Source: Lachnospiraceae bacterium
GTDB lineage: Bacteria > Bacillota > Clostridia > Lachnospirales > Lachnospiraceae
Length of the DNA: 54,626 nt
Reading direction: 5' to 3'
NCBI GenBank assembly: GCA_017431345.1
Contig: JAFRLH010000090.1
Coordinates: 1-54,626, forward strand
Both the position numbers and the translations under genes were made by a program. The notes under the pieces were generated by a model. The model ran no database searches. It was not told the DNA's origin and was given only the letters and a program-made list of their open reading frames with translations. Position 1 is the stretch's first letter; the number at the start of each line of letters is the position of its first letter. Positions 205-49,995 of this stretch are shown piece by piece.

Positions 205-3200
205 ATGTCTCTTACATTCCTTTTCGGCGGCGCCGGCAGCGGAAAATCCACCCTGCTCCGGAACCGCCTGATCCGTTCCTCTTTAACAGATGCCGATACC
301 CGCCACGTCATCCTGGTGCCTGAACAGTTCACCATGCAGACGCAGCGGGATATCCTCGCGGCGCACCCGCGGCATGCTTCCGTCAATATAGAGGTACTGA
401 GTTTTGAACGGCTTGCATACAGAGTCCTGTCGGAACGCAGCAGCGAAAGCTTTACCGTCCTTACCGAGATGGGCAAGCAGATGCTTCTTCGGCGTGCTTC
501 CGAAGACAGCAGCAGAGAACTAACGGTATTCTCGGGCAGTATCCGCCGCCCGGGTTTCTTAAGGTCGCTCTCGGAAATGATCTCCGAATTCTATCAGTAT
601 GATTCGGGAGACCTGGCGGAGATCGCCGGGCAGTTTTATGACCAGCCGCTGCTGAAAAGGAAACTTGCAGATCTTGGAACGATCAAAAAAACGTTTGAAG
701 CAAGAAGAGAAAACGGTCAGATCACCGCAGAGGAATTGCTGCCCGGACTGCTGCGGCTGCTTCCCGGATCGGATTATATGGCCGGCTGCAGACTGTATAT
801 TGACGGTTTTACAGGTTTCACGCCCGTGCAGCTTTCCATATTGGATCTCCTTATGTCCCAGTCTTCCCATATGGAAATCACACTTCTCCTGCCTGAAACG
901 GAAGCCGGGGAGAAGGAGAGCAGGCCGACCGATCTTTTCTTTATGGGCAAAACTACAGCAGATGCGCTGAAGAAAGCCGCAGAGGAGAAGAAGATCGGCT
1001 GCGAAAAGATCGTATTGCGGGAGGACGTCCGGCATGCCGGATCGCCGGAACTGAAATTCCTGACAGAACATTTCATGCGCTTCGGGAAGAAGACGGTATA
1101 TGACGGAGAATGCAGCGGAATCAGCGTGATCAGACTGCGCAATGAAGCAGCAGAGGCTGCCTTCGCCGCTCAGACGATCTCGCATCTGGTCAGGGAAGAA
1201 GGGTACAGATACCGTGACATAGCCGTGGTGACAGGAGATACAGAGACCTACAGAAGGTACCTGATCACGGCGTTTCAGAGAGCCGGAATTCCTTTTTTCT
1301 GTGACAGTCGGAAAGGACTGGCCGGAGACCCGCTGGCAGAATACCTGCTCTGCGCATTGGAGATCATCAGCACGGATTTCTCGTATGAAAGCGTGATGCG
1401 GTTTATCAGGTGCGGAATCGGCCCGCTGGAGCCGGAAAGAGCGGATCTTTTTGATACCTATCTGTATATCACCGGAATACGGGGAAGAAAAGCCTACGCC
1501 AGTGACTTCGGATGGTGTCCGGAACGATATCTTGAAGAGAAGATGGAACAGATCAATGCAGCCAGGGAAGAACTTGTTCATGTGCTGTCTGATCTTACGG
1601 CACTGGCGGGAAAAGGTACCCATACAGGAGAAGAATGGATCACTGCGCTCCGAAAGCTGATGGAAAGGGCATATGTTCCATCCCGCATGCAGGAACTTGC
1701 AGACGCTGCTGCTGCGGAAGGAGACGGGGAAAGAGCGGACGAATACAGCAGAGTGTGTGAGTTCTTTGACACCTTTCTTTCAGAAACCGAAGCATTGTTC
1801 TCCGAAGAATTGTTCGATCCGGACAGTTTCCTGAAACTGCTGGAAGCGGGGATCGCGGAAGGCAGGCTCGGCATGCTGCCGTCCGGGATGGATCAGGTAC
1901 AGATCGGAGATATCAGGCGCAGCCGTCAGAATGAGATCAGGGCGGTGATCCTGCTCGGCATGAACGACGGACTGATTCCGTCCCCCGGCGCTTCCGGCGG
2001 CATTCTTTCGGAAAATGAACGAACAGTACTCCTGGAACGAGGCGTCAGTCTGGCGCCCGCAGCTTTTGACATGGCCTGCCAGGAAAGGGCGTATCTGTAT
2101 ATGCTCCTCTGCAGGCCGAAGGAAAGGCTGTATCTGTCTTTTCATACGCAGAACGGAACCGGCAGTGCCGTCAGGCCTTCCTATCTTCTTCCACAGCTCA
2201 TCGCGATGTATCCCGGCCTTCCGATCCGGACGGCAGAGGATCAGGATACAGCAGATAAGATCACCGGTCTGCCGGCTCTGAAGATGACGTTCGCGGACGG
2301 CGTTCTGAAGAAGACGGAGGAAGCGGAGAGAGAAACACCGGATCCCGGATTTGACGCAATTGCCGCGCTCCTTGAAAAACTGGATAAAGATACCTTTGAA
2401 CGTATTCTGACAGCCGCCTTTCCTGTGCCCGCGGAGCGCAGGATCCTTCCATCCACAGCCGGTCTCCTGTACGGACGGGATATACGCCTCAGTGTGACCA
2501 GGCTGGAAGCGTTTGCGGAATGCGCAGCCGCCCATTTTCTGAAATACGGTCTGAGACTCCGGGAGAGAAAGAAATATACGGTCGACCAGATGGACAGGGG
2601 AACCTTCTTTCACGCCGTTATGGACAGCTTCTTTGCGCTTCTGAAAGAGGAAGGTCTTCAGATCGAAACGCTTTCCGAAGAAGACAGGGAGCGTATCACC
2701 GGAGCGGCTGTTCAGCTGGCGAAGCGGGATGAAAAGATCAGCAGGATGGAAGCGGAAAGCGCAGAGGGCGCTTACAGGACAGAACGATTTGCCGGCCTTC
2801 TGGACAGGGGGATCCGGGCAGTATGCGATCTGATGAAGCGGGGCAGCTTCCGGCAGGAGGCAAGCGAGATGCTCTTCTCCGGATACAACGATAAAGAACT
2901 GGTCATCACGGCAGAAAACGGCAGCCGGATGATCCTTGAAGGGAGAATCGACCGCGTCGATATCAGTGAAGAGGACGGAAAGAGATATGTCCGGGTCGTG
3001 GATTACAAAACAGGGGATAAAACGCTCAGCCTGAATTCGATCTATAACGGACTCTCCATGCAGCTGGTTCTGTATATGGCGGCGGCCATGTTAAAAGACG
3101 GAAAAAGCCATCCGGACAGTACAGCTGTTCCGGCAGGTATGTATTATTTTTCCTTTGCGGAACCGTTTACAGAAACAGAAGCCGGTGCTTCCGAGGAAGA

Positions 3201-3564
3201 AGTATACACAAAATGGATTAAGAACTGGTATCTGAAAGGGCTTTCAGCCGCGGATGATCTGATCGCAGCGAAGAGCGAACCGGTCTCCGGAAAGAAAGCC
3301 GGCGTTCAGCAGATCCTTCAGCTGATCGCTCATACGGGGAAGAAGATGAAGGAAGCCGGGGAGAAGATCACTTCGGGCGATGTGCAGGCTGCTCCCGTGA
3401 TGGAGAAAAAGAGAACAGCCTGTGATTACTGCCCGTACAGTGCAGTATGCGGATTTGACAGAAAGAATCCTGTATACGCATACAGAAGAGTCGAGAACTA
3501 TGAGGACAGCGAGATCTGGCAGAAGCTGAAAGAGGAGGCGTCCGATGGCAGTCAGTTGGACTGA
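205..3564 (+). CDS. addB: ATP-dependent helicase/nuclease subunit B (AddB)
   Basis: 1119-residue B subunit of the AddAB helicase-nuclease. The complex resects double-strand DNA ends and loads RecA for recombination repair, the Firmicutes counterpart of RecBCD. A Walker A motif (GGAGSGKST, residues 8-16) opens the protein. The C-terminal RecB-like nuclease has the DYKTGDK motif (933-939). Four cysteines match the AddB iron-sulfur cluster: Cys773 in FAECAAAHFL and the final trio CxxCx5C at 1073, 1076 and 1082. Length is usual for the family. The gene overlaps addA by 20 nt, so the two subunits are translationally coupled. Confidence 0.95.
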   Translation: MSLTFLFGGAGSGKSTLLRNRLIRSSLTDADTRHVILVPEQFTMQTQRDILAAHPRHASVNIEVLSFERLAYRVLSERSSESFTVLTEMGKQMLLRRASEDSSRELTVFSGSIRRPGFLRSLSEMISEFYQYDSGDLAEIAGQFYDQPLLKRKLADLGTIKKTFEARRENGQITAEELLPGLLRLLPGSDYMAGCRLYIDGFTGFTPVQLSILDLLMSQSSHMEITLLLPETEAGEKESRPTDLFFMGKTTADALKKAAEEKKIGCEKIVLREDVRHAGSPELKFLTEHFMRFGKKTVYDGECSGISVIRLRNEAAEAAFAAQTISHLVREEGYRYRDIAVVTGDTETYRRYLITAFQRAGIPFFCDSRKGLAGDPLAEYLLCALEIISTDFSYESVMRFIRCGIGPLEPERADLFDTYLYITGIRGRKAYASDFGWCPERYLEEKMEQINAAREELVHVLSDLTALAGKGTHTGEEWITALRKLMERAYVPSRMQELADAAAAEGDGERADEYSRVCEFFDTFLSETEALFSEELFDPDSFLKLLEAGIAEGRLGMLPSGMDQVQIGDIRRSRQNEIRAVILLGMNDGLIPSPGASGGILSENERTVLLERGVSLAPAAFDMACQERAYLYMLLCRPKERLYLSFHTQNGTGSAVRPSYLLPQLIAMYPGLPIRTAEDQDTADKITGLPALKMTFADGVLKKTEEAERETPDPGFDAIAALLEKLDKDTFERILTAAFPVPAERRILPSTAGLLYGRDIRLSVTRLEAFAECAAAHFLKYGLRLRERKKYTVDQMDRGTFFHAVMDSFFALLKEEGLQIETLSEEDRERITGAAVQLAKRDEKISRMEAESAEGAYRTERFAGLLDRGIRAVCDLMKRGSFRQEASEMLFSGYNDKELVITAENGSRMILEGRIDRVDISEEDGKRYVRVVDYKTGDKTLSLNSIYNGLSMQLVLYMAAAMLKDGKSHPDSTAVPAGMYYFSFAEPFTETEAGASEEEVYTKWIKNWYLKGLSAADDLIAAKSEPVSGKKAGVQQILQLIAHTGKKMKEAGEKITSGDVQAAPVMEKKRTACDYCPYSAVCGFDRKNPVYAYRRVENYEDSEIWQKLKEEASDGSQLD

Positions 3565-6500
3565 AGAACAGAAAAAAGTCATCTATACAAGGGACAGGGA
3601 TATCCTGGTATCCGCCGCGGCAGGAAGCGGAAAGACAGCCGTGCTGGTCGAACGGATCGTTCAGCGGATCACAGACCCTTCGGATCCGGTCTCGGTCACA
3701 TCCCTCCTGGTGGTCACATTCACAAGAGCCGCCGCTGCCGAAATGAAGGAACGGCTGAATGATGCGCTGGCAAAACGGATGGAGAAAGATCCGGAAAATC
3801 CGCTGCTTGCAAAGCAGGCGGCGCTCCTTCCGCAGGCCCAGATCTGTACGATCGACAGTTTCTGCCAGTGGCTGGTAAAGCAGTATTTCTTCCTGCTGGA
3901 TATTGATCCGGATTTCAGGATCGCCGATCAGGGGGAGGATCTTCTCCTGAAGGAGGACTGTCTGGACAGGGCGCTTTCGGAAGCCTATGAGAAAAACGAC
4001 AATGATTTCAGACAGCTGATGGACTGTATGTCCAAAGATATGAATGACAGAGCTGTAAGGGATATGATTCTTGACATCTTCGATACCTGCGAAAGCATGC
4101 CGTGGCCGGAGAGAACGCTGGAAGCCCTGATGCAGGAATATGACGGCAGTGTCCGGGATCTTGCCGGACAAAGCTGGTTCCTTTCCTGGGGACAAAGTAC
4201 AAGGATCGGTCTTATGTCTTTCGCGGACAGCCTGAAGATGGCAGCCGCGGAATCTTCGGAATATCCGGAACTTGAAAAATATACGGATATGTTCCTTTCG
4301 GATCTCGGAATGGTCAATGATATTCTGGCTTCGGAAAGCTTTGGGGAGATGTATGAAAAGCTTGCCCACCTTTCCTTTGCAAGAAAACCGGGCATCCGGA
4401 AACTGGGCAATACAGACCCGGCCGTAAAAGAAAAACTCTCTGCCTGGAGGGATGCTGTAAAGGATGGATTGAAGGCTCTTTTTCCCGGGGGAAGCGGGGA
4501 TATCCGGCTGGAAGCGGAACTGGCTGCCCGGACAGATCCCGTGCGGCGTGAGATCATCGGGCTGACGCTTCGCTTCGGAGAGATCTATGCGGCGGAAAAA
4601 AGAAAAAGGGATCTGGCAACGTTTTCGGATATTGAACATCTGGCCCTGAGACTTCTCTGGAGATGGGAGGAAGACGAACTTGTTCCGACAGAACTGCAGC
4701 AGGAACTGAAAGGGCTGTTCCGGGAGGTCATGACAGATGAATATCAGGACAGCAATCTGGTCCAGGAAGAGATCCTGCGGGCTTTCGGGAAGAACGGCGG
4801 GCCGGGTGCAGACAGATTTATGGTGGGCGATGTCAAGCAGAGCATTTATCGTTTCCGCATGGCAAGACCTGAAATCTTTATGGAAAAATACAGGACCTAT
4901 TCTCCGGATCAGGATGCAGGAAGCGGATACAGGATCGATCTCGGGAAGAATTTCAGATCCAGGAATTCTGTACTCGCAGGCGTCAACCATATCTTCTCGC
5001 AGGTCATGACAGAGGAACTGGGAGGGATTCCCTATGATGATGCCGCATGCCTGAAATACGGTGCCGGGTATGAACTGGAAGATCCGGAAACGGAACTGCT
5101 GATCTGCGACCACTCGCCCGGAGGCACCGAAGGGATCGAAGCGGAAGCGGGGATGATCGCGGATAAGATCCGGGAACTCATGGACCCTGCGGCCGGCCTG
5201 AAGCTGTGGGATGCAAAGGAAAACAGGGAAAGACCGGTTTGTTACAGGGATATCGTTATTCTTGTACGGTCTGCAGAAAGCATGGCGGAACCGCTGAGAC
5301 GGGTGCTCATGTCCCGCGGGATTCCTGCACATGCGCAGGAGAACAAGGGGTATTTTTCCGCGCCGGAGGTGCAGATCCTGCTTTCCTTCCTGAAGATCAT
5401 TGACGATCCGCTGCAGGATATCCCGCTCGCGGCCGTGCTTCTTTCTCCCATCGGCGGGTTCACGAAGGAAGAACTGGCTTCCATGTGTGCAGGCGTACCG
5501 GCCGGCTATCTTTTTGATAAACTGGCGGCGGCAGCACAGGACGGAAGAGGAACAGAAAAATTTATCGCCTTCCGGGATATGCTCACCGAATACAGAAGGC
5601 TTTCCGCCATCAGGCCGATCCATGAGATCCTGATCAGGCTGCTGGATGAGACCGGGTATCTCTATGTGCTGGCAGCAGAACCGGGCGGCGCGGTCAGAAA
5701 AGCAAATGTTGAAATGCTGATCGAGAAGGCGGCTTCCTTTGAAGAAACAAGCTACAGAGGCATCTTCCGGTTCTTAAGATATATCGAACGCCTGCATGAT
5801 TACAAAGTGGATGAGGGAGAAGCTTCCGCACTGTCGGAAAATGAAGACCTGGTGCGGATCACGACCATCCATAAAAGCAAAGGGATGGAATATCCGGTCG
5901 TCTTCGTTGCCGGAACGGGGCGCTCCTTCAATCTGCAGGATGCACAGGCGTCGATGCTCCTTCACCAGGACAGGGGGATCGCCTGCGACCTGATCGATCC
6001 GAAGAGACGGACAAAGACGCCGCTGCTGTATAAGAAGCTGACTGCAGAGCAGATCAAAAAGGAGAGTCGGGAGGAGGAACTCCGGATCCTGTATGTCGCC
6101 ATGACAAGGGCGAAGGAGAAACTCATACTCACAGCAAATACGGATGATCTCGAGAAGAAGCAGAAGGCATTCACGCTGCAGGGGATCCCGCCTGTGCGGC
6201 AGGCCGGCAAAGCCAATTCTTATCTTGCGTGGCTGCTGATGACCATGGAAGGAAGCCCGATCCGCATGACCGTAAAGGAAGCAGATGAAGAGGCGGCAAT
6301 GGGCGGCTATGATGCGGCGCTTGCAGGGCTGCGGGCCGACAGATGGCGGATCGCAGCAGAGGCAGGAACGGCAGACCGGGCGATCCTGGAGAAGCTTGAA
6401 AGTCTGATAACGTTTGCTTATCCGTTTGCCGATACGGTTTATCAAAAAGGGGTCGCATCTGTTTCGGAACTGAAAAAAGCTGCCGCGCAAAAGGCAGAAA

Positions 6501-38157: not shown

Positions 38158-38865
38158 ATGATGGATAAGAAGAGAAGGGTTATACTGAAGCTTTCCGGCG
38201 AAGCCCTTGCCGGAGAAAAGAAGACGGGATTTGACGAAGAAGTCGTGCGCGAGGCTGCCGGACAGATCAAACCCGCGGTGGATGCAGGAGTAGAACTGGC
38301 AATCGTGATCGGCGGCGGCAATTTCTGGAGAGGCCGTACAAGTACAGCAATCGGAAGAGTGCAGGCGGATCAGATCGGCATGCTCGCGACAGTCATGAAC
38401 TGTCTGTATGTTTCCGAGATCTTCCGGTCGGAAGGGATGCAGACGAAGATCTTCACGCCGTTTTATGTGGGCGACATGACGGAGCTCTTCTCAAAAGATG
38501 CGGCAGAGGAAGCGCTTGCCGCCGGGAAGGTCGTATTCTTTGCAGGCGGCACGGGACATCCTTATTTCTCGACCGATACAGGCATTGTCCTCCGCGCGGT
38601 GGAACTCGGTGCAGACGAGATCCTGCTTGCAAAAGCGATCGACGGCGTTTACGATTCCGATCCTGCGATCAATCCGGATGCCGTGAAGTTCGATACCCTG
38701 ACGATCGATGAAATGGTGGATAAACAGCTGAAGGTGATCGACCTGACCGCTTCCATCATCGCCATGGAGAACAGGATGCCGCTGGCTGTGTTTGGCCTGA
38801 AGGGAGAAGACAGCATCAAGCGTGCACTGATGGGCGATATCACAGGAACAAGAGTTACTGTATAA
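38158..38865 (+). CDS. pyrH: Uridylate (UMP) kinase
   Basis: 235-residue amino-acid-kinase-fold enzyme converting UMP to UDP; the bacterial form is hexameric and regulated by GTP/UTP. RVILKLSGEALAGEKKTGFD, IVIGGGNFWRG and AGGTGHPYFSTDTG are diagnostic. Tandem ATGs lie at 38158 and 38161. It opens the pyrH-frr-uppS-cdsA-dxr cluster. Confidence 0.97.
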   Translation: MMDKKRRVILKLSGEALAGEKKTGFDEEVVREAAGQIKPAVDAGVELAIVIGGGNFWRGRTSTAIGRVQADQIGMLATVMNCLYVSEIFRSEGMQTKIFTPFYVGDMTELFSKDAAEEALAAGKVVFFAGGTGHPYFSTDTGIVLRAVELGADEILLAKAIDGVYDSDPAINPDAVKFDTLTIDEMVDKQLKVIDLTASIIAMENRMPLAVFGLKGEDSIKRALMGDITGTRVTV

Positions 38866-38943
38866 GGAAGAATAATACGGACTGCGGGATTTTTCATCAC
38901 ACCGGGCAGCCCTCAGACAGAATATTATGAGGAGGAAGACACA

Positions 38944-39498
38944 ATGGATGACGCATTAAAAGTTTATGAGGAAAAAATGGGAAAGACCATCTCCAATCTG
39001 AAGGAAGAACTTTCCACGATCAGAGCCGGACGGGCGAATCCCGCTGTCCTGAACAAGGTCACTGTTGATTATTACGGACAGGCTACCCCGATCGCGCAGA
39101 TCGCAAGCGTGACCGTGCCGGAAGCCAGGATCCTGCAGATCCAGCCCTGGGACAAGTCCCAGGTAAAGGCGATTGAAAAGGCGATCAACAAATCCGATAT
39201 CGGCATCAATCCGTCCAATGACGGAAGCGTTATCCGCCTGATCTTCCCGGAACTTACCGAGGAACGCCGCAAGACCCTTGCCAAAGATGTCAAGAAGAAA
39301 GGCGAGGCTGCGAAAGTCGCATTGAGGAATATCAGACGTGATGCGAACGACTTTATCAAGAAGCAGGAGAAGGCCGGAGAGTATACGGAAGATGATTCCA
39401 AGAAGGCTGTGGCTGACATCCAGAAGCTGACGGACAAGTACAGCGAGACAGCGGATAAAGAGACGGAAGCGAAGACAAAAGAGATCATGACGGTCTGA
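38944..39498 (+). CDS. frr: Ribosome recycling factor
   Basis: 184-residue RRF, which with EF-G splits post-termination ribosomes. It begins KVYEEKMGKTISNLKEELSTIRAGRANP and shows the TPIAQIASVTVPEARILQIQPWD hinge region and long charged helices. SD GAGGAGG is very strong. Confidence 0.98.
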   Translation: MDDALKVYEEKMGKTISNLKEELSTIRAGRANPAVLNKVTVDYYGQATPIAQIASVTVPEARILQIQPWDKSQVKAIEKAINKSDIGINPSNDGSVIRLIFPELTEERRKTLAKDVKKKGEAAKVALRNIRRDANDFIKKQEKAGEYTEDDSKKAVADIQKLTDKYSETADKETEAKTKEIMTV

Positions 39499-39517
39499 TC
39501 ATCAGAACGGGATCACG

Positions 39518-39544
39518 GAGGCAGGGAACATCCCCTGCCTCTTT
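39518..39544 (+). terminator. Weak terminator or attenuator between frr and uppS
   Basis: Stem GAGGCAGGG (39518-39526) / CCCTGCCTC (39533-39541) followed by only three T, so partial read-through into uppS is likely. Confidence 0.6.
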
Positions 39545-39597
39545 ACAGGATAATACAGCGGATCATTCCGCAGATTCAGAGTATGTGAGGAAAGATT

Positions 39598-40305
39598 ATG
39601 CAGGATATGGTCATACCGGCGCATGTAGCCGTGATCCTTGACGGAAACGGCCGCTGGGCGAAAGCACATCATGTTCCGAGAAGCATGGGACACAAAGCCG
39701 GATGCGAGAATCTGGAACAGATCGTGGAGGATGCCGCAAGGCTCGGCATACAGTATTTTACGATCTACGGTTTTTCCACGGAGAACTGGAAACGTTCATC
39801 AGAGGAAGTCGGCGCCCTGATGTCCCTGTTCCGGTATTATATCGGCAGGCTGAAGACGGTCGCCATGGCGAACAATGTCCGTGTAAAGAGCATCGGCGAC
39901 CGCAGCAAGTTCGATCAGGACCTGATCGACGGTCTGAATATGCTGGAGGATGTCACCAAAGACAATACCGGCATGACATTCGTATTGGCGCTCAATTACG
40001 GTTCGCGTGACGAGATCAGACGCGGCGTGGAAAAGATCACGGAAGAAGTGAAGGATGGTTCCCTTCAGCCGGAGGAGATTACCGAAGAGGTGATCAGCGC
40101 GCATCTGGATACAGCCGGCATGCCGGACCCGGATCTGATGATCCGCACGAGCGGCGAGCTGCGGCTCTCCAATTATCTGATGTGGCAGCTGGCCTACGCG
40201 GAACTGTACTTTACCGATGTATACTGGCCGGATTTCCATAAGGAGCATCTGGTCGCAGCGATAGAAGAGTACAACAGACGCAATCGCAGATTCGGAGGAA
40301 GATAA
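39598..40305 (+). CDS. uppS: Isoprenyl transferase (undecaprenyl diphosphate synthase)
   Basis: 235-residue cis-prenyltransferase extending farnesyl-PP to undecaprenyl-PP, the lipid carrier of wall synthesis. HVAVILDGNGRWAKAHHVPRSMGHKAG, FSTENWKR and DLMIRTSGELRLSNYLMWQLAYAE are all intact. One base separates it from cdsA. Confidence 0.97.
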   Translation: MQDMVIPAHVAVILDGNGRWAKAHHVPRSMGHKAGCENLEQIVEDAARLGIQYFTIYGFSTENWKRSSEEVGALMSLFRYYIGRLKTVAMANNVRVKSIGDRSKFDQDLIDGLNMLEDVTKDNTGMTFVLALNYGSRDEIRRGVEKITEEVKDGSLQPEEITEEVISAHLDTAGMPDPDLMIRTSGELRLSNYLMWQLAYAELYFTDVYWPDFHKEHLVAAIEEYNRRNRRFGGR

Positions 40306-40306
40306 G

Positions 40307-41128
40307 ATGTTCTGGGTCAGACTTCGGAGCGGGATCATCCTGATGGTGATCGCAGTCTTCCTGCTGGTGATGGGCGGCGCGGTAATGAATATCGGACTTC
40401 TTGCCGTATCGCTGGTCGGAATGTATGAACTGTACAAGGTGATCGATCACGAAAGGACACCGCTTGCGGGAATCGGTTATCTGGCAGCTGTTCTATGGTT
40501 CCTGACGTTTCTTGCGGAGGGGACAGACTACGCGGTGGGAGCGGATATGATCAGGGAAGCCATCCCGGTGATCATGCTGCTTTTCATGCTGGTCTTTTAT
40601 GTGTTCTCCTATCCGGACATCCATATTTCCGAGATCGTTTTCAGCTTCTTCGTGTTCTTTTATGTTCCGGTCATGATATCCTACATGCTGCGGATCCGCG
40701 GTATGGAGAACGGACAGTTCCTGGTATGGCTGGTGTTCATCAGTTCCTGGGGATGCGATACCTGCGCCTACTGTGCGGGAATGCTGTTCGGGAAACACAA
40801 GATGGCGCCGGTGCTGAGTCCGAAGAAATCCGTGGAAGGCGCTGTCGGCGGCGTGATCGGCGCAGCGCTGATCGGGCTGATCTTTGCACTCGTTTTCCGG
40901 AATCATCTGACGGTCTTTACCATGCCGGTCCCCGCGCTTATGATCATCGGCGCTGTCGGGGCGTTGATCTCCATGGTCGGAGATCTTGCCGCTTCGGCCA
41001 TCAAAAGACAGTATAATATCAAGGATTACGGCACGCTGATCCCCGGACACGGCGGGATCATGGACAGATTTGATTCGGTGATCATCACGGCGCCGCTGAT
41101 CTGGTATCTTATCTGCATCATTAGATAA
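40307..41128 (+). CDS. cdsA: Phosphatidate cytidylyltransferase
   Basis: 273-residue membrane enzyme making CDP-diacylglycerol from CTP and phosphatidate. About eight hydrophobic segments. The family signature is complete: LSPKKSVEGAVGG, then DLAASAIKRQYNIKDYG and IPGHGGIMDRFDS. SD GGAGGAAG lies in the end of uppS. Confidence 0.96.
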   Translation: MFWVRLRSGIILMVIAVFLLVMGGAVMNIGLLAVSLVGMYELYKVIDHERTPLAGIGYLAAVLWFLTFLAEGTDYAVGADMIREAIPVIMLLFMLVFYVFSYPDIHISEIVFSFFVFFYVPVMISYMLRIRGMENGQFLVWLVFISSWGCDTCAYCAGMLFGKHKMAPVLSPKKSVEGAVGGVIGAALIGLIFALVFRNHLTVFTMPVPALMIIGAVGALISMVGDLAASAIKRQYNIKDYGTLIPGHGGIMDRFDSVIITAPLIWYLICIIR

Positions 41129-41178
41129 AGCGGCTGCGGCATCCTTTTGCCGACAGCATTCTTTTGGGAAGAATTACT

Positions 41179-42318
41179 ATGAGAAATATCGCGCTTCTGG
41201 GCTCTACAGGTTCGATCGGACGTCAGACGCTTGACGTGGTCAGACATGAGCCGGACATGAAAGTCACTGCGCTGACAGCGCATAAGAATATTGCATTGCT
41301 GGAGGAACAGATCCGGGAGTTCAGTCCCGGGATCGCCTGCGTGACAGAGGCTGCTGATGCGGCGGATCTTGCTGCGCGCGTCGCGGATCTGCCAGTCCGG
41401 ATCGTATGCGGCGTGGAAGGCATGACCGAAGCAGCCGTGGATCCGGCCTGCGACACCGTTCTTACAGCCGTTGTCGGGATGATCGGGATCCGGCCGACGA
41501 TCGCTGCGATCAGGGCGGGCAAGGATATCGCGCTGGCGAATAAGGAGACAATGGTCTGCGCCGGACATATCATTATCCCGCTTGCGAAGGAACACGGCGT
41601 AAGCATCCTGCCGGTCGACAGCGAGCATTCCGCTATTTTCCAGTGTCTGCACGGAAACAGGCAGAACAAAGTGAGACGCATCCTGCTGACAGCTTCAGGC
41701 GGGCCTTTCCGCGGCATGAAATATGAGCAGACTGCACTGGTCACTGCAGCGGATGCGCTGAAGCATCCGAACTGGACCATGGGCGCGAAGATCACGATCG
41801 ATTCCGCCGACATGGTAAACAAGGCGCTGGAGGTCATGGAAGCACACTGGCTGTTCGATGTTTCCTATGATCAGATCGAGGTGCTGGTCCATCCGCAGAG
41901 CATTGTCCATTCGATGGTCGAATATGAGGACGGCGCCGTCATGGCGCAGATGGGAGCGCCCGATATGCGGCTTCCCATTCAGTATGCGCTTACTTACCCG
42001 GACCGTCATCCGATGGATACACAGAAGCTGGATTTCTTCGCAATAAAGGATCTGACGTTTGAAAAACCGGATCCGAAAGCCTTTCCGGGACTCCCGCTCG
42101 GCATCTCTGCAGGACGGACCGGTGGAAGCATGCCGGCCGTGTTCAATGCGGCGAATGAGTGGGCGAATGCAAAGTTCCGGAACGGAGAGATCACTTTTCA
42201 CGGCATCACGGACATGATCGCAGAAGCGATGGACAGGCATAAGGTGATCGCGGATCCGACCGTTGATGAGATCGAAGCGGCGCAGAAAGAGGTCGACGAC
42301 TATCTCAGCACGCTGTAA
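41179..42318 (+). CDS. dxr: 1-deoxy-D-xylulose 5-phosphate reductoisomerase
   Basis: 379-residue second enzyme of the MEP pathway, NADPH-dependent. N-terminal NIALLGSTGSIGRQTLDVV binds NADPH; LPVDSEHSAIFQCL and the metal-binding region follow. ATG 41179 is preferred over TTG 41164, which would add residues outside the family pattern; GGGAAGA is the likely SD. Dxr is the target of fosmidomycin. Confidence 0.97.
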   Translation: MRNIALLGSTGSIGRQTLDVVRHEPDMKVTALTAHKNIALLEEQIREFSPGIACVTEAADAADLAARVADLPVRIVCGVEGMTEAAVDPACDTVLTAVVGMIGIRPTIAAIRAGKDIALANKETMVCAGHIIIPLAKEHGVSILPVDSEHSAIFQCLHGNRQNKVRRILLTASGGPFRGMKYEQTALVTAADALKHPNWTMGAKITIDSADMVNKALEVMEAHWLFDVSYDQIEVLVHPQSIVHSMVEYEDGAVMAQMGAPDMRLPIQYALTYPDRHPMDTQKLDFFAIKDLTFEKPDPKAFPGLPLGISAGRTGGSMPAVFNAANEWANAKFRNGEITFHGITDMIAEAMDRHKVIADPTVDEIEAAQKEVDDYLSTL

Positions 42319-42432
42319 GCAGAAACGGTTAATCAGAATCGAAAGTCCTTTAAACAACATAATTCGTTCACAGACGTGTGTGTAAATGCCTGTAAAGGCA
42401 TCTGCACTGTTTAACGAAAGGATGTAATACGG

Positions 42433-43731
42433 TTGAGTATAGTAAGCATTATCATTGCAATCCTTGTGTTCAGTTTCCTGGTCATTACGCATGAACTGGG
42501 GCATTTCCTGTTCGCAAAAAAGGCGGGGATCGGTGTGACCGAATTCTCCGTGGGAATGGGTCCCAGGATCTTCAGCACAGTAAAAGGGGAGACCCGGTAT
42601 TCCGTGAAAGCGATCCCGTTCGGCGGTTCCTGCATGATGGTAGGAGAGGACGAAGACGATCCTGCGCCGAATGCGTTCAACAAAAAGACCGTGCGCGAAA
42701 GAATACTTGTCGTCGCCGGCGGACCGTTCTTCAATATCGCCTGTGCGTTTATCCTTTCCGTTTTTCTGATCATGGGAGCCGGTGTGAACACGCCGAAGGT
42801 CTATTCCGTAAATGCAGGCCTCGGGGCAGAAGCCGCGGGGATACAGAACGGAGATATCATTAAGCGGATCAACGGGCACAGGATCACGACCGGCGGGGAT
42901 ATCGTTCTGATGCAGATCTCCGATCCGCTGGATGGGAGCGACGTGACGGTCGAATACGAGAGAAACGGGGAAAGAAATACAGTCACCTATGATCCGCATT
43001 ATGAAGCGTTCCGGATTGGTATTTCCTATAATTCCGGAGCGGGAAACGCTGAGATCGGAGAGCCTGCGGCAGAGTCTCCTGCAGAAGCAGCCGGGCTTAA
43101 GAAGGGCGATGTTATTACCGCAGTGGACGGCACGTCCATTGCGACCGGCGAAGAACTGATGAAGTATTTCGCGGAGAATCCGCCCGATGGTACGGAGATT
43201 ACCGTAACGTACGAGAGGGACGGCGCTTCTTATGAAGCGCAGATCACTCCTGCTTTTTATGAATCCAGCGTACTTGGATTTGAAGCTGCGTATTACAGGG
43301 AGAACGCCGGTATCGGCGGTACGCTGATCGGCGCGGTACAGCAGGCTGTTTATTACGTGAAGCTCACGTTCGTATCCCTGAAGATGCTGCTGACCGGTTC
43401 CGCCGGGCTGCGCGATATGTCCGGACCCGTCGGTATCGTTTCCATGATCAGTGACACCGTTGAAGAAAGTGCTTCTTCGGGACTTCTGGATGTCATATTG
43501 AATATCCTGAATCTGTCCATCCTGCTCTCTGTCAACCTTGGGATCATGAATCTGCTGCCGCTGCCTGCGCTGGACGGCGGACGGCTCATTTTCCTGATCG
43601 TGGAGGGATTCCGCGGGAAACCGGTACCGCCGGATAAGGAAGGCATGGTGCATATGGCAGGCTTCGCCCTGCTGATGCTGCTGATGATCGTGGTCCTGTT
43701 CAACGATATAAGAAGGATCATAGGGTTCTGA
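42433..43731 (+). CDS. rseP: Site-2 intramembrane metalloprotease RseP/RasP
   Basis: 432-residue M50 protease. It cleaves membrane-embedded substrates such as anti-sigma factors and remnant signal peptides. The zinc motif HELGH lies in the first membrane helix, and the third zinc ligand is in LLPLPALDGGRL. Two PDZ-like domains lie between, about 125-200 and 205-275 (the latter with AAGLKKGDVITAVDG). It starts with TTG 42433; no ATG fits, and AAAGGATG is 8 nt upstream. The C terminus has the last membrane helices. Confidence 0.94.
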   Translation: MSIVSIIIAILVFSFLVITHELGHFLFAKKAGIGVTEFSVGMGPRIFSTVKGETRYSVKAIPFGGSCMMVGEDEDDPAPNAFNKKTVRERILVVAGGPFFNIACAFILSVFLIMGAGVNTPKVYSVNAGLGAEAAGIQNGDIIKRINGHRITTGGDIVLMQISDPLDGSDVTVEYERNGERNTVTYDPHYEAFRIGISYNSGAGNAEIGEPAAESPAEAAGLKKGDVITAVDGTSIATGEELMKYFAENPPDGTEITVTYERDGASYEAQITPAFYESSVLGFEAAYYRENAGIGGTLIGAVQQAVYYVKLTFVSLKMLLTGSAGLRDMSGPVGIVSMISDTVEESASSGLLDVILNILNLSILLSVNLGIMNLLPLPALDGGRLIFLIVEGFRGKPVPPDKEGMVHMAGFALLMLLMIVVLFNDIRRIIGF

Positions 43732-43762
43732 GAATAAAGGCGCGTCAGCGCCGGGAGAGGTT

Positions 43763-44818
43763 ATGCACACCAGAAAACACACTAAAACAATTCATATCGG
43801 CAGCGTCCCCATCGGCGGTGACGCCCCCATCGCGATCCAGTCCATGACGAACACACGGACCGAAGACATTGACGCCACCGTAAGACAGATCCTCGCCCTT
43901 GAGGAAGCCGGCTGCGATATCATCCGTTCCACTGTTCCCACGGAAGAAGCGGCTGCAGCGATCACGGAGATCAAAAAGCAGATCCATATTCCAATCGTAG
44001 CAGATATTCATTTTGATTACCGCATGGCGATTGCCGCTATGGAAGCCGGCGCGGACAAGATCCGGATCAATCCCGGAAACATCGGCGGATCGGAAAGGAT
44101 CAAGGCAGTCGTTGATTGCGCGAAGGAAAGAAATGTTCCGATCCGTGTCGGCGTGAATTCCGGGTCACTGGAAAAAGAACTGGTCGAAAAATACGGCGGC
44201 GTGACAGCAGAAGGCCTTTGCGAGAGCGCACTGGATAAAGTGAAGATGATCACGGATGCGGGGTATGACAACCTGGTCATCAGCATCAAGTCCTCCGATG
44301 TCCCGATGTGCATCCGCGCCCATGAGCTTGTTTCGGAAGCAGTCGATTTTCCGCTGCACGTCGGGATCACGGAAGCCGGAACGGAATATGCGGGAACGAT
44401 CAAATCCGCAGTCGGCATCGGATCGATCCTGTCGCGCGGGATCGGAGATACGATCAGAGTCTCCCTTACAGGAGATCCGGTGAAGGAAGTCTATGCAGCG
44501 AAGGAGATCCTTGCGTCCCTCGGGCTGCGGAGCTTCGGCCCCAGGATCATTTCCTGCCCGACCTGCGGCAGGACACAGATCGATCTGATCGGTCTTGCGC
44601 ACAAAGTGGAAGAACTGGCAAAGGATTATGATATGCCGATCAAAATTGCCGTCATGGGGTGCGTGGTAAACGGGCCCGGAGAGGCAAAGGAAGCCGATAT
44701 CGGCATTGCCGGCGGAAAAGGCGTCGGGCTGCTGATCAAAGGCGGAGAAGTGATAAAGAAACTTCCGGAGGAGCAGCTGCTTGCCGCGCTGAAGGAGGAA
44801 CTGGATCACTGGAAATAG
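43763..44818 (+). CDS. ispG: 4-hydroxy-3-methylbut-2-en-1-yl diphosphate synthase (flavodoxin)
   Basis: 351-residue [4Fe-4S] enzyme of the MEP pathway, reducing MEcPP to HMBPP. Cluster cysteines lie in SCPTCGRTQIDL and MGCVVNGPGEAKEAD. N-terminal VPIGGDAPIAIQSMTNTRTEDID is the family opening, and PIVADIHFDYRMA is conserved. It uses flavodoxin or ferredoxin as donor in anaerobes. Confidence 0.97.
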   Translation: MHTRKHTKTIHIGSVPIGGDAPIAIQSMTNTRTEDIDATVRQILALEEAGCDIIRSTVPTEEAAAAITEIKKQIHIPIVADIHFDYRMAIAAMEAGADKIRINPGNIGGSERIKAVVDCAKERNVPIRVGVNSGSLEKELVEKYGGVTAEGLCESALDKVKMITDAGYDNLVISIKSSDVPMCIRAHELVSEAVDFPLHVGITEAGTEYAGTIKSAVGIGSILSRGIGDTIRVSLTGDPVKEVYAAKEILASLGLRSFGPRIISCPTCGRTQIDLIGLAHKVEELAKDYDMPIKIAVMGCVVNGPGEAKEADIGIAGGKGVGLLIKGGEVIKKLPEEQLLAALKEELDHWK

Positions 44819-45017: not shown

Positions 45018-45297
45018 AAGCAGATGCCCCATAAAACGCCCAAATGCATGACTATAATAAATATTTGCAATTAAACTGCTGTATTAAAAGGGTACCGTTA
45101 TTGGAAAACTGTTGTAAATCCGCACAGCTGAAGCGGAAGTGAGAAGAGCGTATTAAACGGATTTAAAACACCTGCAAAAAGCAGGCTGAAAACGACCGCA
45201 ATCAGCTGGCTGAAACTGGCTTCTGTCAACAAATTACAAACGTCCGCTTTGCCATCTGACAATGACAATGGAAATCCGGCTGAAAGGATGTCAAAAA

Positions 45298-46032
45298 ATG
45301 GAATTATCGAAATTTGACAATAAACACGTCCGTATCACAGACAAATGGGGACATGTCTTTGAAGGCCTTGCATCTTCGCTTGGTGCGGAGTACTGTTTCC
45401 ACGAATACGGCGAGGAGGATGAAGGGATCCTGGTAGGAGATTATCTGGTCTATAAGAGCGATATCACGGAGATCCAGCGCATCAGACCGCATGGGACAGC
45501 AGAACTGGGAACGACACACCTGCTGCTCAGAAGATACCGTCCGGAAGATGCTCCCTGGCTTTACAGATACTTTGGCTGCAACGAGAATATGTTCCGGTAT
45601 TCCGGCTGGAATCCGTATGCAACGGAAGAGATGGCGGAGAAAACAGTGCAGGAGTTCATCGATCAGTACGAAGATCCGCATTTCTATGGATGGATCATTG
45701 ATTGTGATGACTGTGCAGCCGGAACCATCGGTGCCTATGATTATGAGAATGACAGCGTAGAAGTGGGCTTCAGCATCGCAGAACCTTATCAGGGACGCGG
45801 CTATGCCGGTGAAGCGCTGGCAGAGGTGCTGAAATACCTTACTGAGAATGAAGAAATCCCGCAGGTCACTGCCTGGTGTGCAGCCGATAATCTTGCTTCC
45901 AAACGCACCCTGGAGAAAGCCGGAATGGAGTTTTCCGGGCTGGAGAAAGGCGGGATCACAGTCGGGGACCGGGTATATGACAAACTGAACTATGAGTACA
46001 GAAAAGAGAACGGATCCCTGAAACGACATTGA
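45298..46032 (+). CDS. GNAT acetyltransferase with N-terminal LSm-like domain
   Basis: 244 residues. Residues 1-65 (SKFDNKHVRITDKWGHVFEGLAS, ending YLVYKSDITEIQRI) look like an Sm/LSm-type small beta barrel. The rest is a RimJ/RimL-type GNAT acetyltransferase with LLLRRYRPEDAPWLYRYF, VGFSIAEPYQGRGYAGEAL (acetyl-CoA loop QGRGYA) and NLASKRTLEKAGM. The substrate is unknown. I start at ATG 45298 with AAAGGATG as SD; the frame is open to 45262. It precedes polC, whose promoter overlaps its stop. Confidence 0.88.
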   Translation: MELSKFDNKHVRITDKWGHVFEGLASSLGAEYCFHEYGEEDEGILVGDYLVYKSDITEIQRIRPHGTAELGTTHLLLRRYRPEDAPWLYRYFGCNENMFRYSGWNPYATEEMAEKTVQEFIDQYEDPHFYGWIIDCDDCAAGTIGAYDYENDSVEVGFSIAEPYQGRGYAGEALAEVLKYLTENEEIPQVTAWCAADNLASKRTLEKAGMEFSGLEKGGITVGDRVYDKLNYEYRKENGSLKRH

Positions 46033-46149: not shown

Positions 46150-49100
46150 ATGGAACCTAAACTTCTTCGGGACGTCCTTCCCGATCTTCAGACAAATGAA
46201 TACCTTTCGAAGAAGCTGGATCATATCTATGTGACCCGGCTTTTAATGCCTCATGACAGGCATGCGCTGAAGATCTTCATCCGATCGGATGTGCTGATCC
46301 CCAAGCGGGAGATCTACATTCTTCAGGCTGCGATCAAGAAGCAGTTCTTTGAGCGCAGAAAAATACGGATCGAGATATGCGAATGCTTCGACCTGAAGGA
46401 TGTTCCGGTCCGGCAGAGCCTGGATGAATACCGCGACAGCATTCTGCTCGAACTGAAGGAAAATAATCTGATGGATTATTATATGTTCCGGCACGCGAAT
46501 ATTCATCTGGATGAAGATAATATTCTGGTCCTGGAAGCGGATGATACTGCTGTGAACCGCAGACGGGGAAAGGATCTGTCTGATAAGCTGACCGCAATCA
46601 TCACCGAAAGAATGGGATACAAAGACATCTCGGTTCGGATCCATTACGGCGAGTTCAGAAAGCAGACGGAAAGCAGAAAAGCGGAAGCAGCGGCCGAAGC
46701 GGCCCGGATCGAAGCGATCCTGGAAGAAGCAAGGGAAGCCGAGAAAGAAGCCCATGTCAATGAGGAAAAAAACGGAAGAGCCTCTGCTTACAGAAAGAAA
46801 TACAATAAAGGAAAACGTCTGGATCCTTCAGAAGGGTTCGGCCGTGATTTTGACGGGGAACCGCTCCCGATCGCATCCATCACCCAGGAGATCGGGGAAG
46901 TCGTGATCGAGGGCGAGGTCTTTTCGACGGATTCCAGAACGCTGGCAAACGGAAAAATGCTCGTGACCATCGCAGTCACGGATCACACGGATTCGATCCA
47001 GATCAAATATTTTGCAGAGCAGGAGGAAGCAAATGATCTCCTCGGCTTCGCGGGAAAAGGCGAGTGGATCATCCTGAAGGGGCTGGCGGCGCTCGATAAT
47101 TTTGACAAGGAACTGACGATCCGCAATGTTGTCGGCATCAGGAAAGCCGGCCGCGAAAAAGAACAGCGGATGGATAATGCCATAGAGAAGCGAGTGGAGC
47201 TGCATCTGCATACGAAGATGAGCGATATGGACGGCGTTTCCAAGGCGAGCGATATCATCCTGCAGGCAGCCCGCTGGGGCCACAAGGCGGTCGCCATCAC
47301 CGATCACGGTGTGGTACAGGCGTATAAGGAAGCGTATCAGACAGTCAAGGATAAGAAACTGCCGATCAAGCTGATCTATGGGTGTGAAGGATATCTTGTA
47401 GATGACACTGTGAACGGCGAATGGGATGCCGCGAGGATCTGCAGAACGCCGGAGCGTTATCATATTATCCTGCTTGCCAAAAATGAGATCGGCCGGGAAA
47501 ACCTTTACAGGCTTGTTTCCGAATCCCATCTCACTTACTTCGGAAAACGCCCGAGGATCCCGAAAAGTCTTCTTATGGAATGCAGGGAGGGCCTGATCAT
47601 CGGCTCGGCCTGTGAAGCCGGAGAAGTCTTCCGGGCTGTGGTGGAGAAGCTGCCGGAGGAAGAGATCGGGCGAAGGGTGAAGTTCTATGACTACCTTGAG
47701 ATCCAGCCGGTCGGCAACAACCAGTTCATGATCCCGAGCGAGAAACCGGAACACAGTTATATTAATAATTTTGATGATCTGAGAGAACTGAACAAGAAGA
47801 TCGCCTCGCTGGCGGAAAAATACAGGAAACCGCTTGCTGCTACCTGCGACGTGCATTTCCTGAACCCGGAGGATGAGATCTACCGAAGGATCCTGCAGAA
47901 GGGCATGGGCTTTAAGGATGCGGACACACAGCCTCCGCTGTATCTGCATACCACGGAAGAGATGCTGGAGGAGTTCTCGTATCTCGGTGAAGAAAAGGCT
48001 TTTGAAGCCGTCGTGAAGACACCGAACCTGATCGCGGACTGCTGCGAATTCCTGGATCCGGTGCGGCCTGACAAGTGTCCGCCGGTTATTGAAGGTTCTG
48101 AAGAAGAACTGCGGAACATGTGCTATGAAAAAGCGCATTCCATTTACGGTGATCCGCTGCCGGCGGTGGTCGAAGAAAGACTCTCCAGAGAACTGCACTC
48201 GATCATCTCGAACGGTTTTGCCGTTATGTATATCATCGCGGAAAGACTCGTGAAGAAGTCAAATGATGACGGTTATCTGGTAGGATCCAGAGGATCGGTC
48301 GGTTCTTCCTTCGCGGCGACCATGTCCGGCATTACGGAAGTCAATCCGCTGCCGCCGCATTATGTCTGCCCGAACTGCAAATACAGTGATTTTGAATCCG
48401 AACAGGTGAAGGCTTTTGCCGGGGGTGCCGGCTGTGATATGCCGGATGCAGTGTGCCCGCACTGCGGCACCCCGATGAAGAAGGACGGATTCGATATACC
48501 GTTTGAGACTTTCCTGGGATTCAAGGGCGACAAGGAGCCTGATATCGATCTGAATTTCTCCGGAGAATATCAGAGCAACGCCCATGCTTATACCGAGGTG
48601 CTTTTCGGAACCGGGAACACTTTCCGGGCCGGCACGATCGCGACCCTTGCGGAGAAGACTGCGTACGGTTATGTGCTCAAGTATTATGAGGAAAAAGGCG
48701 TGCACAAAAGAAGATGCGAGATCGAACGCATCGCGAAAGGCTGTGAAGAAGTGCGCCGTTCGACCGGCCAGCATCCCGGCGGGATCGTTGTTATGCCGCA
48801 CGGCGAGAATATCTATTCCTTCACGCCGATCCAGCACCCGGCAAACGATATGACCACGTCCACCGTGACGACGCATTTTGACTATCACTTTATCGATCAT
48901 AACCTGCTGAAGCTTGATATTCTCGGCCATGATGATCCTACCATGATCAGGAAGCTGGAGGATCTGACCGGGCTGAATGCGACGGAGATCCCGCTGGATT
49001 CGAAGGAGGTCATGTCGCTGTTCCAGAATACGGAAGCACTGAAGATCACCCCGGAGGACATCGGCGGAACGAAGCTGGGCGCGCTTGGCGTGCCGGAATT

Positions 49101-49995
49101 CGGCACAGATTTCGCCATGCAGATGCTGATCGACGCGAAGCCCACCTGTTTCTCCGATCTGGTCCGTATCGCCGGACTGGCGCACGGCACCGATGTCTGG
49201 CTCGGCAACGCCCAGGATCTGATCCTTTCCGGGACCGCCACGATCCAGACAGCGATCTGCACGCGTGACGATATCATGACGTACCTGATCAGCAAAGGCG
49301 TGGATAAGAGCATGTCTTTCAACATTATGGAGAATGTCCGTAAAGGAAAGGTGGCGAAGGGAAAGTGCAAGCAGTGGCCGGAATGGAAAGGGGAGATGCA
49401 GGCGCACGATGTGCCGGAATGGTATATCGGTTCCTGTGAAAAGATCGCCTATATGTTCCCGAAGGCGCATGCGGCAGCATACGTCATGATGGCATGGCGT
49501 ATTGCCTACTGCAAGGTGTTCTATCCGCTTGCCTATTACGCTGCCTACTTCAGCATCAGAGGCACGGGTTATAACTATGAGCTGATGGGCATGGGCCTTG
49601 ATAAACTGAAGAATAATCTTGCCAATTACAGGCGCAATCAGGACAATCTGACAGATAAGGAAAAGCTGACGCTGAGAGATATGCGCATTGCCGAGGAAAT
49701 GTATGCGAGAGGCATCGAATTCATGCCGATCGACATATACAGGGCGAAAGCGAAGGATTTCCAGATCATCGACGGAAAGATCATGCCGTCATTCATGAGT
49801 ATTGAAGGCATGGGAGAGAAGGCCGCTGTGGCGGTGGAAGCCGAAGCCGTGAACGGGAAATATATCTCCGTGGAAGATTTTGTCAACCGGACAAGAGTCT
49901 CGAAGTCACTGGCGGAATATATGGCGGAGATGGGGATCTTCGGAGATATGCCAAGAACGAACCAGATCTCCCTGTTCGACCTTGAACTGCTGTAA
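46150..49995 (+). CDS. polC: DNA polymerase III PolC-type alpha subunit, lacking the exonuclease domain
   Basis: 1281-residue replicative polymerase of Gram-positives. Order: N-terminal domain, OB fold (about 240-335), PHP domain, zinc-finger region (CPNCKYSDF, later CPHCG), catalytic motif PDIDLNFSGEYQ (Asp798, Asp800), palm and fingers with TGQHPGGIVVMP and HGTDVWLGNAQ, and a C-terminal clamp-binding QISLF. In Bacillus-type PolC (about 1440 residues) the DxE-type exonuclease is inserted in PHP after the conserved Glu. Here only 25 residues separate Glu413 (IYGCEGYLVDD) and His438 (RYHIILLAKN), with no exonuclease motif. All PHP ligands are kept: His352, His354, Asp361, His386, Glu413, His438, Cys488, Asp567, His569. 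The frame is continuous, so this is not a frameshift. Confidence 0.95.
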   Translation: MEPKLLRDVLPDLQTNEYLSKKLDHIYVTRLLMPHDRHALKIFIRSDVLIPKREIYILQAAIKKQFFERRKIRIEICECFDLKDVPVRQSLDEYRDSILLELKENNLMDYYMFRHANIHLDEDNILVLEADDTAVNRRRGKDLSDKLTAIITERMGYKDISVRIHYGEFRKQTESRKAEAAAEAARIEAILEEAREAEKEAHVNEEKNGRASAYRKKYNKGKRLDPSEGFGRDFDGEPLPIASITQEIGEVVIEGEVFSTDSRTLANGKMLVTIAVTDHTDSIQIKYFAEQEEANDLLGFAGKGEWIILKGLAALDNFDKELTIRNVVGIRKAGREKEQRMDNAIEKRVELHLHTKMSDMDGVSKASDIILQAARWGHKAVAITDHGVVQAYKEAYQTVKDKKLPIKLIYGCEGYLVDDTVNGEWDAARICRTPERYHIILLAKNEIGRENLYRLVSESHLTYFGKRPRIPKSLLMECREGLIIGSACEAGEVFRAVVEKLPEEEIGRRVKFYDYLEIQPVGNNQFMIPSEKPEHSYINNFDDLRELNKKIASLAEKYRKPLAATCDVHFLNPEDEIYRRILQKGMGFKDADTQPPLYLHTTEEMLEEFSYLGEEKAFEAVVKTPNLIADCCEFLDPVRPDKCPPVIEGSEEELRNMCYEKAHSIYGDPLPAVVEERLSRELHSIISNGFAVMYIIAERLVKKSNDDGYLVGSRGSVGSSFAATMSGITEVNPLPPHYVCPNCKYSDFESEQVKAFAGGAGCDMPDAVCPHCGTPMKKDGFDIPFETFLGFKGDKEPDIDLNFSGEYQSNAHAYTEVLFGTGNTFRAGTIATLAEKTAYGYVLKYYEEKGVHKRRCEIERIAKGCEEVRRSTGQHPGGIVVMPHGENIYSFTPIQHPANDMTTSTVTTHFDYHFIDHNLLKLDILGHDDPTMIRKLEDLTGLNATEIPLDSKEVMSLFQNTEALKITPEDIGGTKLGALGVPEFGTDFAMQMLIDAKPTCFSDLVRIAGLAHGTDVWLGNAQDLILSGTATIQTAICTRDDIMTYLISKGVDKSMSFNIMENVRKGKVAKGKCKQWPEWKGEMQAHDVPEWYIGSCEKIAYMFPKAHAAAYVMMAWRIAYCKVFYPLAYYAAYFSIRGTGYNYELMGMGLDKLKNNLANYRRNQDNLTDKEKLTLRDMRIAEEMYARGIEFMPIDIYRAKAKDFQIIDGKIMPSFMSIEGMGEKAAVAVEAEAVNGKYISVEDFVNRTRVSKSLAEYMAEMGIFGDMPRTNQISLFDLELL

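Follow-up and report, generated by a model that had tools for sequence, protein, structure and literature searches.

PHP proofreading is known from polymerases of the DnaE type and of family X but was not detected for Gka PolC, which has one ligand changed, to Asn at a key position (in the experiments cited from PMC5636811; N743 in a published table in PMC3666897). In Mycobacterium tuberculosis DnaE1, D226N abolishes the PHP exonuclease, and the loop that joins the fifth and sixth PHP ligands forms the wall of a groove leading to the PHP site, a primer path supported by loop mutants; in PolC, DnaQ sits in that groove-lining loop (PMC5636811). PolC variants without the DnaQ-like exonuclease (exo-less) were already reported by Timinskas et al. 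in 2013 from Clostridia and Negativicutes (PMC3919608). Here, we report on an exo-less PolC of an uncultured Lachnospiraceae bacterium, the history of the exonuclease loss, and what may proofread in its place.

Methods

The window, a stretch of 54,626 nucleotides, is contig JAFRLH010000090.1 of assembly GCA_017431345.1 (here genome G000). For the classification of PolC, 326 loci were filtered to those with a PolC frame of >450 bits (312), those with the core motif (308; L314, L054, L206, and L084 were dropped), those remaining after removal of identical 96-residue stretches (288), and those with ≥70% of the core (283). The 280 classified sequences exclude L140, L104, and L107, in which part of the PHP was absent. 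The final classification was anchor-free; a regex-anchored version had favored intact PHP and omitted 13 sequences. One automatically misaligned sequence (L088) was intact by eye. Outside the 280, L314 had a low-complexity stretch in the exonuclease's place, with PHP intact, and L140 had a decayed exonuclease, its frame being broken at two unread bases and the first half of its PHP lying outside the reading. In a phylum-wide sample, exonuclease presence was judged from match span. The partner polymerase of G000 (L040) was called DnaE1 from domain content and order.

Results

The window polC (46150..49995, + strand, as are all features given here; ATG start, 1,281 amino acids) scored 1,440 bits with the PolC model NF001688/PRK00448 (curated cutoff, 873) and 1,297 bits with TIGR01405 (curated cutoff, 1,043). 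Pfam identified the PolC N-terminus, OB fold, PHP, polymerase domains, and helix-hairpin-helix (HhH), and no RNase_T/exonuclease match (PF00929) anywhere in the protein. The N-terminal domain (PF14480; residues 6 to 76; 46165..46377) and the OB fold (PF01336, under the gathering score; residues 251 to 324; 46900..47121) lie N-terminal to PHP, as in PolC. PHP is in two parts, the first (47194..47388; Pfam and alignment) with ligands H352, H354, D361, H386, and E413 and the second (47461..47943, ending near residue 598) with H438, C488, D567, and H569; the 24-residue junction loop between them (residues 414 to 437; 47389..47460) is where relatives carry a DnaQ-like exonuclease of ~200 residues. 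The palm, thumb, and fingers (residues 653 to 1085; 48106..49404) contain PDIDLNF at 797 and KLDILGHDD at 921, presumably the catalytic aspartate motifs, and are followed by the HhH region (PF14579; residues 1188 to 1268; 49711..49953) and QISLF (residues 1272 to 1276; 49963..49977), read as a beta-clamp-binding type motif. Upstream (38158..44818; search covering all but 38944-39498) lie pyrH, uppS, cdsA (score under its model's cutoff), dxr, rseP, and ispG, a usual Firmicutes context for polC.

Model scores, the N-terminal domain and OB fold before PHP, the aspartate motifs, and a QxxLF motif place the protein in the PolC group, and the gene is the chromosomal polC, encoding what reads as an ordinary replicative PolC that is entire bar the DnaQ-like exonuclease usually inserted in PHP. 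Without that insert, it was not filed as canonical Bacillus subtilis-type PolC. Like the variants in the 2013 survey, it has the PolC domain layout minus Exo and comes from a genome that also encodes DnaE1; that survey gives QxxLF as the clamp-motif consensus (PMC3919608). The window PolC is a further case of this known form. By sequence, its ligands follow the nine-ligand motif HHDHEH(C/H)DH of PHP-exonuclease replicases (PMC12926913). A structural model of residues 237 to 1281 had a mean pLDDT of 76.5 and a pTM of 0.56.

The window PolC belongs to the same family as the PolC of B. subtilis, Geobacillus, and Enterococcus and matches it in domain order, palm, and clamp motif, but those enzymes carry a DnaQ-like Exo in PHP, and in Geobacillus and Enterococcus the counterpart of D567 is Asn. 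M. tuberculosis and Thermus DnaE1 (PMC5636811) share the HHDHEHCDH site and a ligand 5-6 loop of similar size; they differ in being DnaE-type, with OB on the C-terminal side and reported activity. D226 of M. tuberculosis DnaE1 aligned with D567, the eighth of the nine ligands. An earlier note on this DNA, made from the letters alone, had described a PolC without the proofreading exonuclease, with all nine PHP ligands present and with Asp567 where Bacillus-type PolC has Asn; the first two statements were borne out, and the third was right for two solved relatives (NVHY in Geobacillus kaustophilus and Enterococcus faecium). The gap between Glu413 and His438 was short as it had said, although alignment gives 24 residues and not 25. 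Neither an exonuclease elsewhere in the protein nor a misassembly, which it had named as grounds for abandoning its reading, applied.

The short junction recurred in the four sampled genomes of the genus (G000 to G003), in G069 of a second genus, and in the metagenome-assembled loci L043 and L044; with the same junction in seven clade sequences, misassembly and single-genome deletion were ruled out. The window clade was nested inside exonuclease-bearing relatives; therefore, the loss was local. The tree requires 11 to 19 exonuclease losses if regain of the domain never occurred. One shared loss was rejected for the window clade with G033, G062, and G141 (approximately unbiased [AU] test, p = 0.0097) and for those plus UBA3689 and the second G092 copy (p = 0.00026), the groups in both tests having been chosen after the first tree was viewed. 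G033 and UBA3689 carry decayed-exonuclease forms of PolC; in-place decay has no mention in the portions of Timinskas et al. 2013 cited here (PMC3919608). Match span put the exo-less count of the phylum-wide sample at 61 of 101 PolC besides the window's, and reading the sequence of G364, whose match span had suggested that the domain was present, raised it to 62. Exo-less PolC made up 6% of PolC sequences in the 2013 survey (PMC3919608) and 98 of 280 here, where samples are spread over lineages, so the shares are not comparable one to one. Exo-less PolC is common in these samples and, on this tree, has arisen many times, and the pattern of loss is what is new here.

In a first alignment of 32 PolC, of which 9 were exo-less and 2 had a decayed exonuclease, the nine ligands were intact in all 32, so a complete set is normal among relatives rather than something gained. 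The cultured Megasphaera cerevisiae DSM 20462 also has an exo-less PolC. Among the 280 classified PolC, both sites were intact in 175, the exonuclease was lost with PHP intact in 98 (94 deleted, 4 decayed in place), PHP was broken with the exonuclease intact in 7 (breaks stemming from about five lineages), and none had both broken. With kinship ignored, the naive P value for this exclusion of double loss was 0.047 in the 280 set and 0.43 in the first survey; the pattern is suggestive, not statistically decisive. In the first survey, the nine ligands were invariant in 37/37 exonuclease-lacking PolC (PHP invariant columns, 38/227). PHP shows no relaxation after the loss, the median PHP/palm distance ratio being 1.39 in the window clade versus 1.64 in the nearest exonuclease-bearing relatives.

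No DnaQ-type replacement was found by sequence in G000, an assembly 96.9% complete, in which a missed gene is possible. The stand-alone DnaQ sought at the earlier note's suggestion was not seen there; only one other exonuclease of DEDDh type was present, the single PF00929 match being a protein fused to Big_2 Ig-like domains, which we take to be KapD-like and which looks membrane-anchored from its sequence. Relocation of the PolC exonuclease in trans (zero matches to a PolC-exonuclease probe), a second PolC copy with Exo (one PolC alone found), and a PolA-type exonuclease (PF01612, zero matches) were rejected for this genome. Its second DnaE (C82) matches a phage DNA polymerase family and was set aside as a cellular proofreader. 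G001 and G003 also have one PF00929 protein each, and G002, of the same genus, has none. A DnaQ-like protein of ~240 residues occurred in 23/32 other family genomes and in 0/4 of the window genus. Outside the class, 29/40 exo-less genomes had some PF00929 protein and 11/40 had no match; G364 had zero matches, and exo-less G141 has a stand-alone PF00929 protein of 268 residues. Because relatives that retain the exonuclease give matches with comparable scores, the remaining PF00929 proteins do not track the loss. MutS_V proteins were present in 17/17 genomes surveyed, the window genome included, leaving an accompanying loss of mismatch repair unsupported. The DnaE1 of G000 has PHP (all nine ligands present), polymerase, finger, HhH, and OB domains, and its loop between ligands 5 and 6 is 21 residues long versus 24 in the window PolC.

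Discussion

The explanation that we favor, and hold to be probable, is that PolC's own PHP site binds metals, removes mismatched 3' ends, and proofreads without a DnaQ domain. In this view, the DnaQ-like exonuclease dropped out, in an ancestor of this Lachnospiraceae lineage, from the segment joining the fifth and sixth PHP ligands, a loop now of DnaE1 size; the still-complete PHP site would most likely act on 3' ends like the M. tuberculosis DnaE1 PHP, and PolC would proofread itself. Exonuclease activity of PHP, and its deciding role in fidelity, are our inference. Counting for it are the ligands kept invariant after the loss, the unrelaxed PHP, the lack of double breaks among the 280 (a weak exclusion, as its P values show), the D226N and Gka PolC results, the groove role of the loop and its DnaE1-like length, the scarcity of PF00929 proteins in G000, G002, and 11 of the 40 exo-less genomes, and the presence of MutS_V proteins. 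Completeness alone shows no compensation because most relatives that retain the exonuclease have just as complete a PHP; the link between loss and a complete PHP implied in the earlier note was wrong as stated, PHP being complete in 175/182 exonuclease-bearing PolC. Of the two options in that note, PHP in place of the exonuclease is the best remaining reading of the sequences, and a separate DnaQ-like protein has lost ground.

The canonical clostridial system likewise pairs PolC with DnaE1, both of them replicative alpha subunits with a complete PHP site, and most Clostridia are reported to have three candidate proofreading sites, versus two here (PMC12926913). A partner DnaE1 with a complete PHP could proofread in trans, which counts against self-proofreading by PolC, and PolC would then be fast but nonproofreading, or secondary. 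The domains and ligands of L040 fit this arrangement, the 2013 survey raises the question of whether DNA in Clostridia is normally replicated by DnaE1 (PMC3919608), and a 2026 survey cites trans complementation of B. subtilis DnaE3 by PolC's DnaQ domain (PMC12926913); we nonetheless think it unlikely, as it leaves unexplained the invariant PolC PHP ligands after the loss. We give still less credence to a separate exonuclease, either without DnaQ similarity or among the remaining PF00929 proteins, that binds PolC and acts like epsilon. The PF00929 proteins of G000, G001, and G003 are candidates, and those of the 29 genomes outside the class and of G141 count against PHP self-proofreading; however, G002 has no such protein, the G000 copy has Ig-like fusions and apparent anchoring, the matches are not tied to the loss, and the ~240-residue protein is missing throughout the genus.

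Least probable, to the point of being very doubtful, is that PolC has no active proofreading, fidelity coming from base selection and mismatch repair with PHP serving folding only. The ubiquity of MutS_V agrees with it, as does the structural role of PHP published for E. coli Pol III (PMC3666897), and PHP may be kept for such a role, which counts against self-proofreading. However, alpha-, beta-, and gammaproteobacterial DnaE1, in which PHP is thought inactive, have extensively substituted ligands (PMC3919608), and all nine were kept in 98/98 exo-less PolC classified.

For PolC in general, we see an even chance that no enzyme can do without a functional exonuclease of one type, DnaQ or PHP, although either may be dropped, and that repeated decay or excision of the DnaQ domain in Lachnospiraceae and several other lineages has left PHP as PolC's sole proofreader. 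Surveys that pick PolC by its RNase T insert (PMC11963600) would miss the exo-less polymerases. The nine-ligand exo-less PolC, together with the decayed forms of G033 and UBA3689, makes the question of PHP proofreading in PolC directly testable.

The polC frame of the window (positions 46150 to 49995, plus strand) encoded 1281 residues, exceeded the cut-offs of both curated PolC models, and contained every PolC part detected by Pfam except the DnaQ-like exonuclease normally inserted in PHP. The earlier note had called this exonuclease missing, and it was: Pfam gave no exonuclease match, and exonuclease-bearing relatives in the family carried about 190 to 200 extra residues, with FD(I/L)ETT and HRAVDD-type motifs, at the junction between PHP ligands 5 and 6. 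All nine PHP metal ligands were read, as claimed (H352, H354, D361, H386, E413, H438, C488, D567, and H569), and the spacing from E413 to H438 was indeed short, with 24 residues in between rather than the 25 first counted. Upstream of polC lay pyrH, uppS, cdsA (scoring under the cut-off of its model), dxr, rseP, and ispG, a usual context for polC. An unnamed 256-residue protein (45262 to 46029, plus strand; no NCBIfam match at 1e-10), flanked by ispG on one side and polC on the other, looks like a GNAT acetyltransferase in its second half.

One PolC was found in the genome of the window (G000), plus one cellular-type and one phage-type DnaE. The latter (1102 aa; L041, G000:C82:1-8000, positions 412 to 3720) adjoined guanylate-kinase and cell-wall-hydrolase genes. 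Its match to phrog_405, a family of phage DNA polymerases (8e-214), makes contig C82 a probable phage contig.

A misassembly deleting the exonuclease, a case the note had raised, was not borne out: the short junction was common to all four sampled genomes of the genus (G000 to G003) and recurred in G069, of a different genus, and in two MAG loci titled uncultured Lachnospiraceae (L043 and L044), ruling out an artefact. Although polC of G001 was split across two contigs, its junction lay entirely inside one. Best-segment identity was 69% for L044 and 96% for L043, which is therefore perhaps the same species as the window. The note's alternative to PHP proofreading, a separate DnaQ-like protein, found little support in G000, where the exonuclease profile PF00929 matched one frame and neither PF01612 nor a PolC-exonuclease probe matched any. 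That 1036-residue frame (L042, G000:C61:46000-52500, positions 118 to 3225, minus strand) is an odd fusion of a DEDDh-type exonuclease, presumably KapD-like, with Big_2 Ig-like domains and, judging from its sequence, a probable membrane segment. Elsewhere in the genus, G001 and G003 each had a single PF00929 match of similar score; G002 had none. A DnaQ-like protein of about 240 residues (80 bits or more) was present in 23 of 32 other family genomes and absent from all four genus genomes searched. Among 40 exo-less genomes of other classes, 29 had at least one PF00929 match and 11 had none; G364 likewise gave no match. MutS_V proteins were present in 17 of 17 genomes asked, and DnaE1 of G000 (L040) had its own nine PHP ligands.

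Exo-less PolC as such is known, not new (PMC3919608). That 2013 survey puts its share at 6% among PolC and at 16% within the PolC+DnaE1 type, frequencies not like-for-like with ours, which come from samples spread over lineages. The RNase T insert was used to select PolC in PMC11963600. In our family sample (139 other genomes), the main PolC match ran through the junction, without a PolC exonuclease by probe, in G069, G062, and G141. The class sample (136 other genomes) held 19 through-junction matches and seven genomes with DnaE-strength matches alone (table counts by eye), two more with decayed exonucleases (G224 and G248), and one, G186, reduced to a 57-residue loop. In the phylum sample of 139 genomes, G000 apart, matches were through-junction in 61 and split in 40, contig ends truncated them in four, and the remaining 33 had matches of DnaE strength alone (best E 1e-48 or weaker; table counts by eye); G364, among the 40 split, had lost the exonuclease on sequence reading, with a low-complexity Ala/Glu/Asp-rich stretch in its place (L314). 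All three Megasphaera records among the named loci were exo-less. G299 carried, besides a normal PolC, a second, divergent PolC-like match (G299:C11:7216-9411; 39% identity, query 347-1146, 751-residue frame), and G092 (L141, G092:C9:59500-64300) carried two PolC, a normal exonuclease-bearing one and an exo-less copy on another contig.

In a tree of 57 PolC (LG+G4, no mixture; PHP/exonuclease region left out), the window clade formed five rows (support 100/99) within a set of nine (96/97), four of which had the exonuclease. A FastTree of 280 PolC gave different nearest neighbours (L150, L141, and L147; support 0.947) and again nested the clade among exonuclease-bearing PolC, which argues for a loss there. 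Joining it with other Lachnospiraceae losses was rejected (AU tests, p = 0.0097 and 0.00026, on groups chosen after the first tree was seen). With a midpoint root and no regain, the FastTree required 19 losses, a number that fell to 11 once branches with support below 0.95 were collapsed; since its deep branches were weakly supported, late insertion of the exonuclease is possible for old lineages, in place of losses. Domains at the exonuclease place had lost their catalytic motifs in G033 (114 aligned residues), UBA3689 (L048; 151), and G107, where the first PHP half was unread and two unread bases broke the frame; the decayed exonucleases are counter-examples to a published statement. G033 clustered with deletion cases G062 and G141 in the 57-PolC tree (85/71), a grouping at 0.12 in the FastTree and absent from another tree. 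Decay, then deletion, may plausibly have been one path.

The 280 classified PolC comprised 175 with both sites intact, 94 with PHP intact and exonuclease absent, four with PHP intact and exonuclease decayed (L048, L080, L235, and L237), seven with PHP broken and exonuclease intact, and none with both broken. Four of the seven, all Lachnospiraceae (L142 in G127, L145 in G090, L146 in G126, and L149 in G163), are the mirror image of the window PolC; the other three (L324 to L326) have, like Geobacillus, Asn at the D567 position. The naive probability of zero double losses, relatedness ignored, was 0.047 for these 280, against 0.43 for the 197 of the first survey. With relatedness uncorrected and the PHP breaks coming from about five lineages, the exclusion is a pattern rather than proof.

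Constraint on PHP does not start at exonuclease loss, because PHP is usually intact beside the exonuclease (175 of 182 exonuclease-bearing PolC). Nor was the PHP/palm distance ratio raised after loss: medians were 1.39 in the window clade versus 1.64 in its nearest exonuclease-bearing relatives, 1.41 and 1.21 in two other exo-less clades, and 1.13 in all exo-lacking versus 1.22 in all exonuclease-bearing PolC. In 37 exo-lacking PolC (first survey), all nine ligands fell within 38 invariant columns of 227; ligand invariance in the 151 exonuclease-bearing comparison sequences, selected as PHP-intact, is by selection.

According to PMC5636811, nine residues hold three zinc ions in Mycobacterium tuberculosis DnaE1, D226N abolishes its exonuclease, and its ligand 5-6 loop, the loop in which PolC carries DnaQ, adjoins the proposed primer strand path; Geobacillus kaustophilus PolC, in which a single ligand differs, lacks a PHP exonuclease. 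Titles and abstract openings of open-licence literature yielded no PHP activity test on exo-less PolC. The loop has 24 residues in the window PolC (structure model mean pLDDT, 76.5) versus 21 in DnaE1 of G000, and 12 to 57, mostly 16 to 25, in exo-absent PolC of the first survey. Because of the DnaE1 precedent and this DnaE1-sized loop, we think that PolC of the window probably edits with PHP, whose site would be the predicted proofreading nuclease after exonuclease loss.
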